Of a stretch of DNA of 64,000 nucleotides, positions 8,832 to 43,991 are shown piece after piece. The translations under genes and the position numbers were made by a program. Each line of letters starts with the position of its first letter. The stretch's first letter is position 1. The notes below the pieces were generated by a model that saw only the letters and a program-made list of their open reading frames with translations, was not told the DNA's origin and made no database searches. The stretch lies in contig KE159697.1 in assembly GCA_000403415.2 (NCBI GenBank), positions 105,476 to 169,475 of the forward strand. Reading direction: 5' to 3'. This DNA comes from Firmicutes bacterium M10-2 (GTDB lineage: Bacteria > Bacillota_I > Bacilli_A > Erysipelotrichales > Erysipelotrichaceae).

Positions 8832-9901
8832 AGGTCTTGTCCTCCATTTTCGTTTTCCTTCATTGTTTTTTCCTTTTCTTCTTTTCTTTTTTTTATTTTC
8901 ATTGTCGAACCGCATTCATGCAGCGTGCATTCGAAAATACGGCCCGGCACTTGTTCTTTTTTGTCCATGATCACATCTAGCAGCATACTTGCAGCCTGAA
9001 AGCCTGCCTCATAAGAAGGATGTACGATTGTGGTTACGCTCGGGGTCACCATTTCTGTCCATTCCAGTGAATCAAAACCCATCAAGCCAATATGGTCGGG
9101 CATCCATTCATGATAACGACGCAAAGCAAGAAATACTGCTTTGAGCAATTCAGGGGTTGTTACGAAAAAGCATGTCCGCTCTTCGATTCGAATGTGTTGG
9201 AGCAGCTCGAATTCCAGATGAGTCAAATCATCTGGATCATGTACGTAAATTGTCTTGCTGCGTAAATGGTGTAAATTAATGAAATGATCGAACGCCAGAC
9301 ATCTTTGTGCGATTGTCGCATGTCGGCCGGGTTCTTCTGTCACCATGATCATTCGAGTATATCCTGTTTCGATCATTTGCTCCAACACGTTGTATACTAC
9401 CTCGTAATCATTGAAACGAACCCAATTCCAGTATGGGGAGATGTGGGGCGGATTATACACGACGAGCGGTCTTTGTCCTCCTACAGTTTTCCACAGCAAA
9501 TCAAAACTTTCGCTCGGATTAACAATAAAGCCATCGACATTTTGAGCCTTCATCTTTTCAATTTGACGTCGTTCTTCGTCAAGATCCCAATTCGAGGTCG
9601 CTACAATCATTTGATAGTTGTTTTTTTTCAGGCAATCTTCCACACCATCAATAAACCGAGATTTTTCCCAATTTGCGGACGAGCGCATAATGACCCCAAT
9701 CATGAATGATTGTTTATTGTTCAGCGAACGTGCCAAAACATTAGGAACAAAATCCGTTTCTTCTATTGCTGCCTCGATCTTTGCCCGGGTCTTATTTGAC
9801 ATTTTCTCGAATTTTTGATTGATGTAAAACGATACGGTGGTTCTCGATACCCCGGCTTTTTTAGCGATGTCGGCAATCGTTACTGAATTCTTTTTACGCA
9901 T
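8828..9901 (-). CDS. LacI family regulator, probable KdgR-type repressor of the kdu operon
   Basis: The N-terminal HTH (VTIADIAKKAGVSRTTVSFYIN) is followed by the hinge NVLARSLNNKQSFMIGVI and a periplasmic-binding-protein-like effector domain ending with GLMGFDSLEWTEMVTPSVTTI. The protein is about 357 aa from the Met at 9901. Earlier in-frame Met codons (9910, 9916) are possible starts, but a GAGG motif fits 9901 best. It is the first gene of the kdu operon and is translationally coupled to kduD, so it is likely an autoregulator responding to a keto-deoxyuronate. The Lys/Glu-rich C-terminal tail (KIKKRKEEKEK) is unusual for LacI proteins. Confidence 0.9.
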   Translation of the reverse strand: MRKKNSVTIADIAKKAGVSRTTVSFYINQKFEKMSNKTRAKIEAAIEETDFVPNVLARSLNNKQSFMIGVIMRSSANWEKSRFIDGVEDCLKKNNYQMIVATSNWDLDEERRQIEKMKAQNVDGFIVNPSESFDLLWKTVGGQRPLVVYNPPHISPYWNWVRFNDYEVVYNVLEQMIETGYTRMIMVTEEPGRHATIAQRCLAFDHFINLHHLRSKTIYVHDPDDLTHLEFELLQHIRIEERTCFFVTTPELLKAVFLALRRYHEWMPDHIGLMGFDSLEWTEMVTPSVTTIVHPSYEAGFQAASMLLDVIMDKKEQVPGRIFECTLHECGSTMKIKKRKEEKEKTMKENENGGQDL

Positions 9902-38314: not shown

Positions 38315-38343
38315 AAAAAGGCGCTATATTTCAACGCCTTTTT
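38315..38343 (-). terminator. Terminator at the end of the sortase gene
   Basis: AAAAAGGCG and CGCCTTTTT arms, with the sortase stop codon inside the loop. Confidence 0.75.
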
Positions 38344-38806
38344 GGGGTATTTGTTCTTTTTCGACCACTCCACAAAGTCTGGCTCGTATGGTCACACGCT
38401 CTTTTCCTAAATATGTACACGTAAAAAGGGTGAGTGCATAATCGGTATCGACCATACGGTCAATTTCGGTCGGCTGCAATTGTTCAATCTTTTCAACCTC
38501 ATACCTATAGCGATTTTCTTCTGTTTCAAGATAGATAAGATCTCCAAATACAAGCTGATCGAGATGTCCGAAATGGTCATTTGCATTGTGTGCGCAAATG
38601 ATTATATGTCCTTCTTTATTCGAATATAAACATGGTGCAAGATCAAGTGCTTGCTGAGAATAGCTGGATTGCACCGGCAAATTTAATTCAAGGTGAGGAA
38701 TTTGAAGGATTCCGATATAATTCGGATCAATCTCACCTGTTTCGAGTTCGGATATTGTTTTTGTGGCAATTTCAGAGCGCTCACGCTCCTGCTTTGTTTG
38801 TTTCAA
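38324..38806 (-). CDS. Sortase, N-terminally reduced
   Basis: This 160-aa sortase domain has the catalytic His in IIICAHNAND, the catalytic Cys in ALTLFTCTYLG and the Arg in ERVTIRARLCG. It starts at a TTG that overlaps the stop of the upstream fragment. A normal sortase needs an N-terminal membrane anchor. In this frame only a piece of one, CLLVGCALFLSL, is readable upstream of the TTG, and a TGA stops the frame before it. The true start and part of the anchor therefore seem lost, or initiation uses an unusual CTG. The catalytic part is complete. It would join sorted surface proteins to the wall; one candidate substrate lies at the right end of the window. Confidence 0.75.
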   Translation of the reverse strand: MKQTKQERERSEIATKTISELETGEIDPNYIGILQIPHLELNLPVQSSYSQQALDLAPCLYSNKEGHIIICAHNANDHFGHLDQLVFGDLIYLETEENRYRYEVEKIEQLQPTEIDRMVDTDYALTLFTCTYLGKERVTIRARLCGVVEKEQIPQKGVEI

Positions 38807-38994
38807 AGACAGAAAAAGTGCGCATCCGACCAGTAAACATCAGTAAGATGGTCATTCAACTCTTTTGGACCTGCTACAAGTTCTTGGTTTTCTGCATATA
38901 CCCGACCTACCGGAACACATAAGAAAAGAGATACAAAGATGACAAACCATGTTCGCAAATGGCGAGCCATCCGTTTGGGGAAATTGTAAATCAT
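38803..38994 (-). CDS. Short exported protein or truncated gene before the sortase
   Basis: The 63-aa product has a clear signal peptide (RTWFVIFVSLFLCVPVG, cut after VYA) followed by only 33 residues (ENQELVAGPKELNDHLTDVY onward). An AAAGGA site precedes the ATG. It ends in a TGA overlapping the sortase TTG as TTGA. It may be a small secreted protein or the remaining N-terminus of a surface protein joined to the sortase gene by a deletion; the incomplete sortase anchor supports the second view. Confidence 0.5.
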   Translation of the reverse strand: MIYNFPKRMARHLRTWFVIFVSLFLCVPVGRVYAENQELVAGPKELNDHLTDVYWSDAHFFCL

Positions 38995-39426: not shown

Positions 39427-39474
39427 ATGTTCGAACATAAATTATTGCGATTGCTTTGCTTAATTTTTTATAAT
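39427..39474 (+). promoter_or_regulatory. Promoter and palindromic operator of the peptide/ABC operon
   Basis: TTGCGA (39445-39450), an 18-base spacer and TATAAT (39469-39474) form a promoter. The 12-bp perfect palindrome ATGTTCGAACAT (39427-39438) lies just upstream of the -35, a usual place for an activator of the Rgg/ComR kind. A small hairpin TGCAAG/CTTGCA lies in the leader. Confidence 0.6.
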
Positions 39475-39544
39475 TAAATTGTTTTAAATAATTCAGAGCT
39501 TTTGCAAGAATCATGCTTGCATGAAACATTAGGAGGACAAAGAG

Positions 39545-39703
39545 ATGGCAAAGGTATATAGAAATTCAGTTTTCACAAAATTTTACGATTTATCAAACGA
39601 TTATTTTGCTTATGACGCATTGAAAATTTTCGATAAATTAGGGGAATTCATAGTTTCCGGACAATACGGAAAACTTGTAAAACATATAGCTGGCGGATAT
39701 TAA
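39545..39703 (+). CDS. 52-aa peptide, putative signal peptide or leaderless bacteriocin precursor
   Basis: The reading frame begins MAKVYRNSVFTKFYDL and ends YGKLVKHIAGGY. It has an ideal AGGAGG site nine bases before the ATG and its own promoter, and its stop codon is one base before the ABC exporter start. No Sec signal or double-glycine leader is present; the only Gly-Gly is two residues from the C-terminus. The peptide is aromatic- and Lys-rich, slightly basic, and its second half could form an amphipathic helix. The size and C-terminal KHIAGGY faintly recall aureocin A53-like leaderless bacteriocins, but this is not homology I can assert. Context suggests it is the exported substrate of the ABC protein. 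Confidence 0.6.
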   Translation: MAKVYRNSVFTKFYDLSNDYFAYDALKIFDKLGEFIVSGQYGKLVKHIAGGY

Positions 39704-39704
39704 T

Positions 39705-41384
39705 ATGCATAAACTTATCAAAAACAAAGCTCTTTATTATTTTACTGTTTTATCGATTTTAACTTTTTCAATGCTTGATCTTTTTAAATCAATTATTTTC
39801 GGTAGCTTTTTCAACACATTGGAAAATGAAAGAGAACTCAATCAGCTGGCAAAATGGATCGTTGCTTTTGTGATCTTGATGTTTATTATCGAAATGATCA
39901 TGAAAGGTCTTATGGTTTATTTTAAATATTCGCTGCGCGAAAAACTAAGCAAGGATTTATATGAATCTTGGCTGAATTTATCACCGGACGAATTTCAAAA
40001 GACAGATACGAGTGCGCGGATCAACAAACAAACGAATGAAATCAATACGATCATCGATCAATATATCACTTCAAAGCTGAATATTTATCGTTATGGATTT
40101 CTTTTTATAATCGGAAGTTTTTATATCGGAATGAATAGTCGCATCCTTCTTTTGTTCATTTATGTATGTGCAATTTCCCTATCCTTATTTAATCGGACAT
40201 TTAAAGGTCGGCTGGAAAGTAATCAAAAAAATGTTTTAAACCAGCAAAAACAGTGGATTGGTGTGCTGAAAGGATTTTGTTCCAACTTTCTGACAATCAA
40301 AGATTATGATTTGGACAAAACATATTCTTCTCGCCTGCAAAGCCAAAATAAAACATTGAATAAAATCACAATTCGCAATGAATGGTTGAAACAAGGTGTA
40401 TTAGCCATAAATGATTTGGGTGTAAATATTATCTTTTTCGGAGAATCTTTGATTGGATTTTATATGATTAATCAAGGCTATATTTCTTTGAGCGTATTCA
40501 TGGCAATCATTCAAGCGAGCAACATGGTCATCAACCCGATTGGCTGGTATATGGAGATGTACAATAATGTGCAGTCATCAAGCGTTGTGGTCAATGAATA
40601 TCTAAAAGAAGTTCAAAAAGAAAAAAGTCCGAAAGAAAAATTAAATGAACCGATTTCTTCTTTCTCAATAAAAGATCTGATATTCAAAAGAAAAGAAAAA
40701 ACGATTTTCGATCATTTTTCCTTGCAAATTCAAAAAGGGAAAAAATACTTAATTGTCGGAGAAAGCGGATGCGGAAAAAGTACATTGCTCGAATTGTTAA
40801 GCGGAACAATTACTCATTCCGATGTTTTTGCCAATGATGTGCCGATGAATTCCATAGAGCACACATCAATTGCCCATCAACTGACGTATTTACGTCAACA
40901 CCCCGATCTCCTTCCGGGAACTTTAGAAGAAAACATTACGTTATGGGAACCGGCTGATGCCGAAAAGTTGAATTGTGTTCTGGATCAAGTTCATCTGAAT
41001 AGTTTAAAATCACGACTTTGCGAGCTTGTACAAGAAGATAGTTTGGAAATCAGCGGCGGAGAATTACAACGACTTTCTCTTGCTAGAGGCTTGTATAATT
41101 TAAAAGACTGGCTGTTTTTGGATGAAGCATTTTCAGCATTGGATGAAGAAAATGCCAAACAAATCGAAAATGATATTTTGAAAAATTATGACATCTCGAT
41201 TGTTTCGATTTCACATAAACTTTTTGAAGAAAACATTTTGTTGTATGATGAAGTCATCGAATTCACGAAAAACGGGGTGCATTTCCTATCCCCTTCGGAA
41301 TATTTGCAAAAAAGGAAATGCAGCACGCACACAATCAAAAATCAAACTTCAAATAATGAATTAGTTTTTCCTGATAAAGAATAA
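39705..41384 (+). CDS. ABC exporter half-transporter (membrane domain + ATPase)
   Basis: This 559-aa protein has about six helices in residues 1-300, without an N-terminal peptidase domain. A C-terminal ATPase follows: Walker A GESGCGKST, signature ISGGELQRLSLARGL, Walker B DWLFLDEAFS, and switch His in SISHKL. It resembles peptide, lipid or drug exporters that act as homodimers. Direct coupling to the 52-aa peptide gene (one-base gap) makes that peptide the likely substrate or the exporter its immunity factor. The DNA is clearly more AT-rich than flanking metabolic genes, a sign of horizontal transfer. The 3' end overlaps the convergent regulator gene by 50 bases. Confidence 0.88.
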   Translation: MHKLIKNKALYYFTVLSILTFSMLDLFKSIIFGSFFNTLENERELNQLAKWIVAFVILMFIIEMIMKGLMVYFKYSLREKLSKDLYESWLNLSPDEFQKTDTSARINKQTNEINTIIDQYITSKLNIYRYGFLFIIGSFYIGMNSRILLLFIYVCAISLSLFNRTFKGRLESNQKNVLNQQKQWIGVLKGFCSNFLTIKDYDLDKTYSSRLQSQNKTLNKITIRNEWLKQGVLAINDLGVNIIFFGESLIGFYMINQGYISLSVFMAIIQASNMVINPIGWYMEMYNNVQSSSVVVNEYLKEVQKEKSPKEKLNEPISSFSIKDLIFKRKEKTIFDHFSLQIQKGKKYLIVGESGCGKSTLLELLSGTITHSDVFANDVPMNSIEHTSIAHQLTYLRQHPDLLPGTLEENITLWEPADAEKLNCVLDQVHLNSLKSRLCELVQEDSLEISGGELQRLSLARGLYNLKDWLFLDEAFSALDEENAKQIENDILKNYDISIVSISHKLFEENILLYDEVIEFTKNGVHFLSPSEYLQKRKCSTHTIKNQTSNNELVFPDKE

Positions 41385-42591
41385 CTTGTTCCAATTGAGA
41401 TTTTTCAGAATAGTACTCAACAAGAACTTTGTAAAACGGAATTTCCAATTGAACGCTTTTGAAATTCGGAAGCTGTTGTTCGATTTGTTGTTGCTGCTTT
41501 TCAAAATGAACACTATCCGTTAAACGGAAACGAAGCAATTGTAAAAACGAAGCGATAAATCGTCCTCTGGCATTTAAATGAGATTTTTTTAAAAAATCAG
41601 AAATGTAGTCAAGACAAATCGTTTCGTTTTTTAATCGGTAAGAGCTGTATGCCAAAACAATATAAATGTCCGGAAATTCACTTCCTTCTTTTAAAGCAAG
41701 CTTGGCATACTCCATAGCTTTTTCGTCTTGTTCCAAAAGAAAATAGCACCAAGCCAGATTATCGTAAATGGCACATAAAAAATCAGATTTATTATGAATT
41801 TGCTGACCGGAACGAAGCAGCTCATCAAAAGTAGCGATTGCCCGTGAATAAATGTGCATCTGAAACAATAAGATCCCTTTATTCAAAGTAACATACAACA
41901 TTCGGCGATATGCTCCCGCTTTCTGGAAAGCATTTTCGCAGCTTTCAATTAATTCATATGCCTCTATTGTTCGATAAGCATTTGCCAAGCGATAAATTTG
42001 ATGATACAAAATCAATCCATACAATCCCGGATCATGGGCGATCGAACAATACCCTTGTGCCAAGCGTAAATAATACATGGCGGCATCCACAGAAAGCGAA
42101 GGACGCATGCTCATAAAATCATTTAAAATAATCTGATAAAAGGGCTCTGTAAAAAAATTGCTCTCATATAACTTGATAATTTCGTGTTCGCATTTCCGAT
42201 TTTCGAACTTCATCACATAGACAGAGAGTAATCGGTGATGGAAGTATCCGAATCCATTGGAATCGGAACGTGATAAAAAGGCTTTGAGAGGGTCAAGAAT
42301 TTCTTCCGTTGTCAGGTGAACAAAATGGTATGCGCATTCATGCACCCATTGATCATACTCTTGTAAGATTTCTTTATCTTTTAAGAAAACAAAACTCGGA
42401 TCGATCGTATGCACAAATTGCAGGATATCCTCAAAAAGATAAGAATCCATTTCCTGTGCATTGGATTCCATTTTGCTTAAAGTACTTCTTGAAATATGGA
42501 TGGCATTGGCCAGATCGATTTGTTTGATTTCATATATTTTGCGAAGTTGTTTCGTATACAAACCGTAGAATTTTTTAAAATTAAATTGCAT
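41335..42591 (-). CDS. XRE-TPR (Rgg/PlcR-like) transcriptional regulator
   Basis: The 418-aa protein from the Met at 42591 starts with a Cro/CI-type HTH (LYTKQLRKIYEIKQIDLANA, then HISRSTLSKMES). A long array of TPR-like helical repeats follows, such as RAIATFDELLRSGQQIHNK, LAWCYFLLEQDEKAMEYAKL and DIYIVLAYSSYRLKNETI. This is the layout of RRNPP-type regulators that bind small peptides. CAGGA precedes the start. It converges on the peptide/ABC operon and is divergent from an MFS gene. It most likely controls one or both, in response to a processed form of the 52-aa peptide or another peptide. Confidence 0.82.
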   Translation of the reverse strand: MQFNFKKFYGLYTKQLRKIYEIKQIDLANAIHISRSTLSKMESNAQEMDSYLFEDILQFVHTIDPSFVFLKDKEILQEYDQWVHECAYHFVHLTTEEILDPLKAFLSRSDSNGFGYFHHRLLSVYVMKFENRKCEHEIIKLYESNFFTEPFYQIILNDFMSMRPSLSVDAAMYYLRLAQGYCSIAHDPGLYGLILYHQIYRLANAYRTIEAYELIESCENAFQKAGAYRRMLYVTLNKGILLFQMHIYSRAIATFDELLRSGQQIHNKSDFLCAIYDNLAWCYFLLEQDEKAMEYAKLALKEGSEFPDIYIVLAYSSYRLKNETICLDYISDFLKKSHLNARGRFIASFLQLLRFRLTDSVHFEKQQQQIEQQLPNFKSVQLEIPFYKVLVEYYSEKSQLEQVILYQEKLIHYLKFDF

Positions 42592-42670
42592 AATTATATT
42601 TCCTGAAAAAATAATATCATAACCAATCAGAAAAAGAAAAGCATAAAAAATAAATAACAGAGGCTCATTT

Positions 42671-42694
42671 GAATCAATCAAAATGGATTGATTC
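42671..42694. promoter_or_regulatory. Inverted repeat between the XRE-TPR and MFS genes
   Basis: GAATCAATC and GATTGATTC are perfect 9-bp arms with a six-base centre in the divergent intergenic region. It could be an operator; a T-rich stretch on the plus-strand side also allows a terminator reading. Confidence 0.4.
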
Positions 42695-42800
42695 TTTTCT
42701 TTTTCCATTCAGAAATCACATAGATAACTATTCAATATAGGAATTAGTCATATTTATTAACATTCGATATACTGAATCCGTAAAGAAAGGAAAAGAAATC

Positions 42801-43991
42801 ATGAAGCTCAAAAAAGAATTTACATCTCTTCTTATGATCGTATTTGTCATAATAAATTTTGTCTTGTCTTTATCCGGGACATTGTTTAACGGGATCTTGG
42901 ATCATATCGCAAAACTGCTGCAAATCAGTGTCGCAAGCACAGGCTCGCTGACTTCGTTTTACGCATACGGAGCAATCGGGGCTCCGGTTCTTGTCTTTGC
43001 TTTCGGGCAAATCAAACGGGCGACATTGCTGAAAGGAACTCTTTTTTTTACATTATTATTCGGAATTCTTTCTATTTATACAAAAAGTTTTCCGGTCCTT
43101 CTTTTTGCCCGTTTTATGTCCGGACTTTTCGCAACAGCGTACAATGTACTTGCGACCACAACCATTGCCGCTCTGTCATCCGAAGATAAGGTAGGGCGCA
43201 ATATTGCGCTGCTCATTACCGGCGCATCAGCATCTTTGATGGTTGGCGTTCCGTTATGCAGGATTTTGATCGAATACCTTGCTTGGCAGACCATCTATCT
43301 GATTCTTGTGATCTTCATGATAATAGGACTTCTTTTACTCAACTTCCTGCTTCCGGATATAAAAACACATGGGGATTCGATCCATTTGAAAAAAGAGCTT
43401 AGTATGCTTTTTTCAAAAAAAGTATTTTCAATCGTGATGATCTCGTTCATTGCTTTTGCAGGCTACGGAGCCTTCTACACATATTTGACACCTTATCTTG
43501 TGGCTATGTTTCCGCAAGTCGAACAATACACAAGTTTGCTTCTCGTTCTTGTGGGCGCTTTTGCTCTGTTCGGAAATTATATCGGCGGAATTTTCTGCGA
43601 TAAGATCGGATTCAAAAAAGCCTTGTTTTTCGGAACTGTGATCCAGCTTTTTATCGGGATCCTGATCTTTATAACGCAAAACAGCACATTCATCAATATT
43701 GTGTTTGTCATGGTCTGGATGCTCGTTGGCTGGTTTATCGGTTTGCAGCTCAATACAGGGATTAATATTGTTACCCAAAACAAATCAAGCTTTCTCGTTT
43801 CGCTCAACGGATCGATCATACAATTTTCGCAAGCGATCGGTGCTTCTATGGCTGCACTTGTGATCGCAAATACAGAAATTTCATTCATTATTTTCGTTTC
43901 GATTTTCACTTCGGCATTGAGCGTCGTTCTTTTGATCCCGCTCCTTAACAAAAAAGAAAATCAATCTTCCGTTCTGGCTAAACAAGCTTAA
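42801..43991 (+). CDS. MFS exporter (DHA1, AraJ/YdhP-like)
   Basis: This 396-aa protein with 12 predicted helices begins MKLKKEFTSLLMIVFVIINF. It has FARFMSGLFATAYNVLATTT, the loop residues SSEDKVGRNIA, ITGASASLMVGVPLCRIL and a central SIHLKKELSMLFSKK linker. This matches the DHA1 drug/arabinose-efflux type that exports sugars, nucleosides or drugs. AAAGGAAAAG lies before the ATG. It is divergent from the XRE-TPR regulator, so it may belong to the same regulon, for example as a resistance function, although it has its own terminator. Confidence 0.85.
   Translation: MKLKKEFTSLLMIVFVIINFVLSLSGTLFNGILDHIAKLLQISVASTGSLTSFYAYGAIGAPVLVFAFGQIKRATLLKGTLFFTLLFGILSIYTKSFPVLLFARFMSGLFATAYNVLATTTIAALSSEDKVGRNIALLITGASASLMVGVPLCRILIEYLAWQTIYLILVIFMIIGLLLLNFLLPDIKTHGDSIHLKKELSMLFSKKVFSIVMISFIAFAGYGAFYTYLTPYLVAMFPQVEQYTSLLLVLVGAFALFGNYIGGIFCDKIGFKKALFFGTVIQLFIGILIFITQNSTFINIVFVMVWMLVGWFIGLQLNTGINIVTQNKSSFLVSLNGSIIQFSQAIGASMAALVIANTEISFIIFVSIFTSALSVVLLIPLLNKKENQSSVLAKQA

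Follow-up and report, generated by a model that had tools for sequence, protein, structure and literature searches.

We analysed a 64,000-nucleotide stretch of the genome of Firmicutes bacterium M10-2 (part of contig KE159697.1; hereafter the window), in which a 52-codon open reading frame (ORF) directly precedes the gene of a peptidase-less ABC exporter, with an XRE-TPR regulator gene convergent to the latter. An earlier note on this DNA had proposed the ORF as a new signalling peptide or a leaderless bacteriocin. Neither proposal is supported: as a free peptide it has no relatives, and the ORF is homologous to the 3' end of a maturase gene in sister loci. Most likely, the supposed signalling peptide is the leftover tail of a lost gene for a peptide-modifying enzyme. 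The block as a whole is probably a decayed locus for a radical-SAM-modified, ribosomally synthesized and post-translationally modified peptide (RaS-RiPP), linked to a regulator of the RRNPP type, in which the exporter survives and the maturase tail is kept as a translationally coupled leader ORF. The exporter and regulator frames are intact.

The sister group of the exporter consists of loci L098 (genome G011), L099 (G009) and L100 (G169), with support 94/96. L098 is intact and comprises an XRE gene, a precursor (MKELSFDINLNVAVACGGMACGNVIC), a 414-aa radical-SAM/SPASM maturase, and an exporter gene overlapping the maturase end by 8 nt; in L099 maturase residues 1-374 are lost and residues 375-414 remain ahead of an intact exporter. 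Residues ~13-52 of the window ORF align with both maturase tails without gaps, in frame, and at equal distance to the exporter start. In the strictest test, in which the alignment register is tied to the exporter start codon with no free offset allowed, the scores were 36 (L098) and 41 (L099), attained by 1 of 100,000 shuffles (p 1e-5) and by 0 of 100,000, respectively; the L098 and L099 tails are mutually related, hence these two tests are not independent. None of 290 other gene upstream regions attained the fixed-register score, while other frames and the regions upstream of other exporters reached 2-14. A comparison anchored at the C-terminus gave the same picture (0 of 583 other protein ends attained the score), and Smith-Waterman alignment of the peptide gave p about 5e-4 to 1e-3 for L099 and about 5e-3 for L098. 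At the DNA level, register 0 is the best of 61 registers with L098 (45/90 identical, p 2e-5).

The codons at the gene ends agree with this. The L098 maturase ends in AAA TAT GTT TAA and that of L099 in AAA TAT GTC TGA, against TAA TAT GCA TAA in the window, where the stop of the ORF (TAA, 39701-39703) occupies the position of the relatives' AAA (Lys). As read from the codon alignment, a Lys codon evidently became a stop three codons before the old maturase stop, which is still visible (TATGCATAA). The C-terminus IAGGY, to which the earlier note drew attention, is accordingly nothing special: it aligns with FEGTV of the maturase, and its end results from the Lys-to-stop change at the next codon. 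The SPASM cysteines are missing from the ORF. The Shine-Dalgarno (SD) sequence of the exporter itself, GGCGGA, is weak; in the relatives, GAAGGT lies within the maturase tail at almost the equivalent position. By all these alignments the ORF evidently retains the last ~40 codons of a radical-SAM/SPASM maturase gene, in register with the exporter start.

As a free peptide, the ORF has some favourable traits. It carries AGGAGG 8 nt before its ATG, in accord with the ideal translation signals claimed for it, and is the sole intergenic ORF of 40-119 aa in the window that scores 6/6 for SD; the exporter indeed begins one base downstream (39703 to 39705). The coding signal of its frame is moderate, lying above 99.6% of stop-free shuffles and being equalled by 17% of open wrong-frame pieces, the two controls of this test. 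The product is predicted to be helical, with an isoelectric point of 9 and a net charge of about +1.6. Together with the plausible promoter and the precursor position immediately ahead of the exporter, these traits would suit a maturase-derived ORF co-opted as a small functional exported peptide, antimicrobial or toxic, with the ABC transporter as its immunity pump. We consider this quite unlikely: the ORF matches no Pfam, NCBIfam or PHROGs family at E<=1, known leaderless and other bacteriocin families included, it has no relatives in 273 genomes of the family or among plasmids, phages and viral contigs, so that its frame is not conserved alongside the ABC gene, and the maturase-tail homology accounts for it. 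An amphipathic antimicrobial helix was also rejected, its moment showing no excess over shuffles (overall p 0.28-0.32). Other origins fared no better: the N-terminus (MKE[LI]...) and core of the Cys-rich precursors of L089, L092 and L098 fail to align with the Cys-free ORF (p > 0.5); descent from a maturase N-terminus gave one gapped alignment with p about 0.04-0.05 (L092) and p 0.3-0.9 otherwise, the C-terminal tail being preferred; and descent from an XRE-TPR gene tail gave p about 0.8.

The exporter shows catalytic motifs (Walker A GESGCGKS, ISGGELQR, LFLDEA, ISHK) and no C39 peptidase domain. In the exporter tree it falls within a ten-member clade (support 100/99) limited to five genomes of the order; members of this clade often lie in Cys-peptide/radical-SAM (RaS-RiPP) loci, in line with the earlier description of the window gene as a peptide exporter, and an XRE-TPR gene lies close by at every clade locus, so the linkage of exporter and XRE-TPR gene is kept in relatives. 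Among curated NCBIfam models its best match is CydD (137.5 bits), followed by GggC (NF050039) at 134 bits against a cut-off of 750, far below equivalog level; relatives with intact loci score alike (e.g., 134.7 for L092). Alternatively, the exporter could be an ordinary efflux pump for drugs or antimicrobial peptides, controlled locally by an XRE protein, its RaS-RiPP likeness being gene-family background and the ORF either spurious or an attenuator leader. More distant exporters often form XRE-ABC pairs that lack a peptide gene, and such loci also occur inside the clade (L087, L093, L094, L100). However, precursor and maturase genes, whole or as remains, are found in the nearest relatives L098 and L099 and also in L088, L089 and L092, and the ORF has its maturase-tail homology; we regard the ordinary pump as doubtful.

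In the better-preserved loci of the clade, the ABC exporter is accompanied by an XRE-TPR regulator, a Cys-rich precursor, and a radical-SAM/SPASM maturase. The apparently intact L092 (7629-12317), from genome G142 of the same genus, combines an RRNPP regulator, a divergent peptide with the motif C..HH..D.CW, a radical-SAM/SPASM maturase, a Cys precursor (MKELVIGRNIQEKIQAKLNYMNGGAGGHNCHCGS), and the ABC exporter. Compared with these, the window has an exporter of the right clade, the last ~40 codons alone of a maturase, and no alignable precursor. Decay is general in its own genome, where none of the four detectable maturases has survived whole: that on C16 has its SPASM part deleted and the precursor end fused to it, that on C22 is frame-shifted, that on C21 is truncated, and that of the window is reduced to its tail. 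The exporters beside all four are full length, with catalytic motifs largely recognisable (the C21 exporter falls outside the ten-member clade). These intact exporters next to lost maturases, together with the loci that have only exporter and XRE-TPR genes, suggest that the exporter is useful without a product, for which immunity or efflux would be the simplest reason.

The regulator was correctly placed in the RRNPP layout. Its SD-bearing start lies at 42591 (MQFNFKKFYG), within a mechanical ORF of 457 aa (41335-42708), and its gene overlaps the exporter 3' end by exactly the 50 bases claimed (41335-41384). The Pfam matches to HTH_3 and TPR are weak and below gathering scores; a profile search found the Rap3T, RapF and NprR structures, matched over 300 and more residues, and an AlphaFold2 model (predicted local distance difference test score 92.7) had Rap3T and NprR as top Foldseek hits (probability 1.00, template-modelling score up to 0.73). 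By profile and predicted fold, the protein is thus an RRNPP-type receptor. A six-frame check next to it found no pheromone-like ORF and no C..HH..D.CW gene or remnant. This vacancy, and the type of the receptor, would fit the 52-aa ORF as the pheromone precursor of a self-contained quorum-sensing circuit. We find that highly improbable: paralogous regulators pair with divergent signal-peptide C..HH..D.CW peptides, unlike the 52-aa ORF, which has tail homology and no conservation. It lacks, as claimed, a Sec-type N-terminus, has no hydrophobic N-terminal segment, and is neither the short hydrophobic exported precursor nor the 8-10-aa leaderless form of SHP/LCP pheromones (PMC13361665).

At least five relatives of the window regulator occur in its own genome at E<=1e-6. 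With the exception of that at C1:380455, each paralogous regulator examined is accompanied by a small divergent ORF that encodes a hydrophobic N-terminus and the motif C..HH..D.CW. A search with one such peptide found eight places in the own genome (G000); the ORFs are 45-52 aa long, have a signal-like N-terminus, and mostly diverge from an XRE-TPR (RRNPP-type) gene. Pfam and NCBIfam have no model for this family, a candidate new pheromone family so far undescribed. This pairing of an RRNPP receptor family with a new family of exported peptides, in bacteria other than streptococci, holds more promise as a lead. At one locus (L106:1495-2708, on G000 C21), the C..HH..D.CW peptide is followed by a 90-aa Gly-rich hydrophobic ORF and an 85-aa membrane protein, which look like a bacteriocin and immunity pair. 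Several regulator paralogues share near-identical blocks and have diverged elsewhere (the DNA-binding end of L087/L090, 94%; the C-terminal part of the L088 pair, 100%; the C-terminal quarter of the three L101 regulators, 96-99%), which suggests domain shuffling or gene conversion among these receptors. In G142 one truncated regulator end occurs thrice (C1:2285926, 2356932 and 2427938; E 1.4e-26 each), ~71 kb apart and beside repeated transposase-like genes; this may reflect large duplications or an assembly artefact.

What is established is the maturase-tail homology, the integrity of the frames and the fold of the receptor; beyond these, we infer the following course of events. A deletion would have taken the precursor and the maturase body, placing a strong ribosome-binding site before the maturase tail. 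The promoter would now yield a two-cistron message, on which translation of the 52-codon remnant ends a single base short of the exporter start; the short ORF would act mainly as a leader, its translation coupled to that of the exporter. The substrate leaving the cell through the exporter would be a peptide or a related compound, and the cell could keep this pump to protect itself from, or expel, the peptides of related strains (orphan immunity), or to export the product of another locus. The adjacent RRNPP receptor, whose pheromone gene was lost or never present, would regulate the block, possibly via a pheromone encoded elsewhere in the genome. A more elaborate version, which we rate as unlikely, has the maturase tail kept on purpose in two lineages (the window and G009), as a free small protein or as a coupled leader controlling or assisting the exporter; in lineages that no longer produce a RaS-RiPP, regulator and exporter would form an inducible immunity module against sibling-made peptides, triggered by eavesdropping on C..HH..D.CW pheromones.

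Several observations weigh against the decayed RaS-RiPP locus. The related maturase tail is carried by two loci only, its identity to the peptide is low (about 25-30%), and at the DNA level register 0 with L099 is not the best on its own (37/90, against 38/90 at +3). The homology leaves the first ~12 residues of the ORF unexplained; they probably stem from the joint of a deletion or from the start of the precursor gene, as happened in L099, whose precursor start reads out of frame into the maturase tail. Since the ORF retains a consensus SD and a fair promoter, ribosomes may translate it, and its product could have been co-opted. The XRE-TPR genes linked in the sister loci belong to another subtype than the window regulator, whose control of the block we infer from adjacency only. 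The breaks in the C22 and other maturases could be assembly errors, and the immunity role of the exporter is a proposal from sequence.

Table 1. Features of the block in window coordinates, and C..HH..D.CW ORFs in two genomes.
Feature	Position	Strand	Basis or remark
Perfect palindrome ATGTTCGAACAT, 12 bp	39427..39438	none	Sequence; directly 5' of -35 box
Sigma-70-like promoter TTGCGA-18-TATAAT	39445..39474	+	Consensus scan, 10/12 matches
52-aa ORF	39545..39703	+	Residues ~13-52 evidently a remnant of a radical-SAM/SPASM maturase C-terminal tail; first ~12 residues unexplained
TATGCATAA, old maturase frame end (Y A stop)	39704..39712	+	Overlaps exporter start; codon alignment with L098, L099
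Peptidase-less ABC exporter (transmembrane and nucleotide-binding domains, half transporter), 559 aa	39705..41384	+	Pfam ABC_membrane and ABC_tran; frame intact
XRE-TPR regulator, RRNPP type, 418 aa	41335..42591	-	HTH/TPR domains, profiles, predicted fold
Terminator-like hairpin and T-run	42671..42694	+	Between regulator and MFS
MFS transporter, DHA1-like	42801..43991	+	Pfam MFS_1; divergent from regulator
C..HH..D.CW ORFs, own genome G000	C21:47542, C21:49581, C1:609932, C16:170990, C16:177928, C16:197065, C12:589996; C1:189108		C1:189108 degenerate
C..HH..D.CW ORFs, G142	L092 ~8990-9130; L095:7672-7827		

Of the remaining signals in the block (Table 1), the palindrome ATGTTCGAACAT upstream of the -35 box exists as described, and its reading as a regulon-wide site was rejected. 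The 2.4 Mb genome contains the exact 12-mer only once, which makes this label unwarranted, and the peptide and regulator promoters share no word longer than 9 bases; as the window contains 30 perfect 12-bp palindromes of any sequence, one near a given promoter is weak evidence. Likewise, the ORF's own promoter stands as a consensus match, without any excess of promoter-like matches in the region (14, against 17.4 in shuffles). The AT-richness of the block was confirmed (GC 0.325-0.349 across 38-43 kb, against 0.417 for the whole window). The divergent MFS gene is present, and is probably not part of the system because no MFS gene lies beside the paralogous regulators examined. Mobile carriage of the block was rejected: the exporter has no plasmid (E<=1e-30) or viral-contig relative, the peptide none in plasmids, phages or viral contigs, and the regulator none in viral contigs. 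In the sister species G142 the trigger-factor neighbourhood is kept in part, and the block is absent there. A sortase gene of the window (38324-38994 on the minus strand) is split between two frames, with the signal part at 38803-38994 and the catalytic part at 38324-38806, and is either frame-shifted or a pseudogene.

Establishing the origin of the ORF removes a false lead, that of a new signalling peptide, and illustrates step by step how a modified-peptide locus linked to quorum sensing breaks down and its exporter persists. Should the exporter confer immunity, this bacterial family would offer a natural setting in which to study 'losing the weapon, keeping the shield'. Leaderless bacteriocins with an ABC transporter include EJ97 and LsbB/LmrB. 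The window resembles these in having a small leader-free ORF right before a peptidase-less half ABC transporter, and differs in that the ORF has no family match and is explained by the maturase tail, and in that the exporter has no plasmid relative at the threshold given above. In a study on enterocins (PMC10598978), ABC transporter genes are reported to serve as orphan or shared bacteriocin immunity; the role proposed here for the window exporter would be alike, although the transporter family is another. With NprR and Rap (PDB 5dbk, 4gpk, 8rst) the window regulator shares the N-terminal HTH (as NprR) and the TPR superhelix fold, at about 15% identity and with no adjacent pheromone gene. Close parallels are the streptococcal RaS-RiPP loci regulated by Rgg/SHP, such as the GGG locus that yields streptosactin (PMC13361665; curated models NF050039 for the exporter GggC and NF050038 for the maturase GggB). 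The window differs from them in lacking precursor, maturase and SHP, in its low GggC score, in belonging to another bacterial family, and in having its regulator convergent with the exporter. Its relatives, however, likewise put an RRNPP-type regulator beside a precursor, a radical-SAM/SPASM maturase and a peptidase-less ABC exporter, and the layout of L092 in particular parallels that of the streptococcal loci (PMC13361665).

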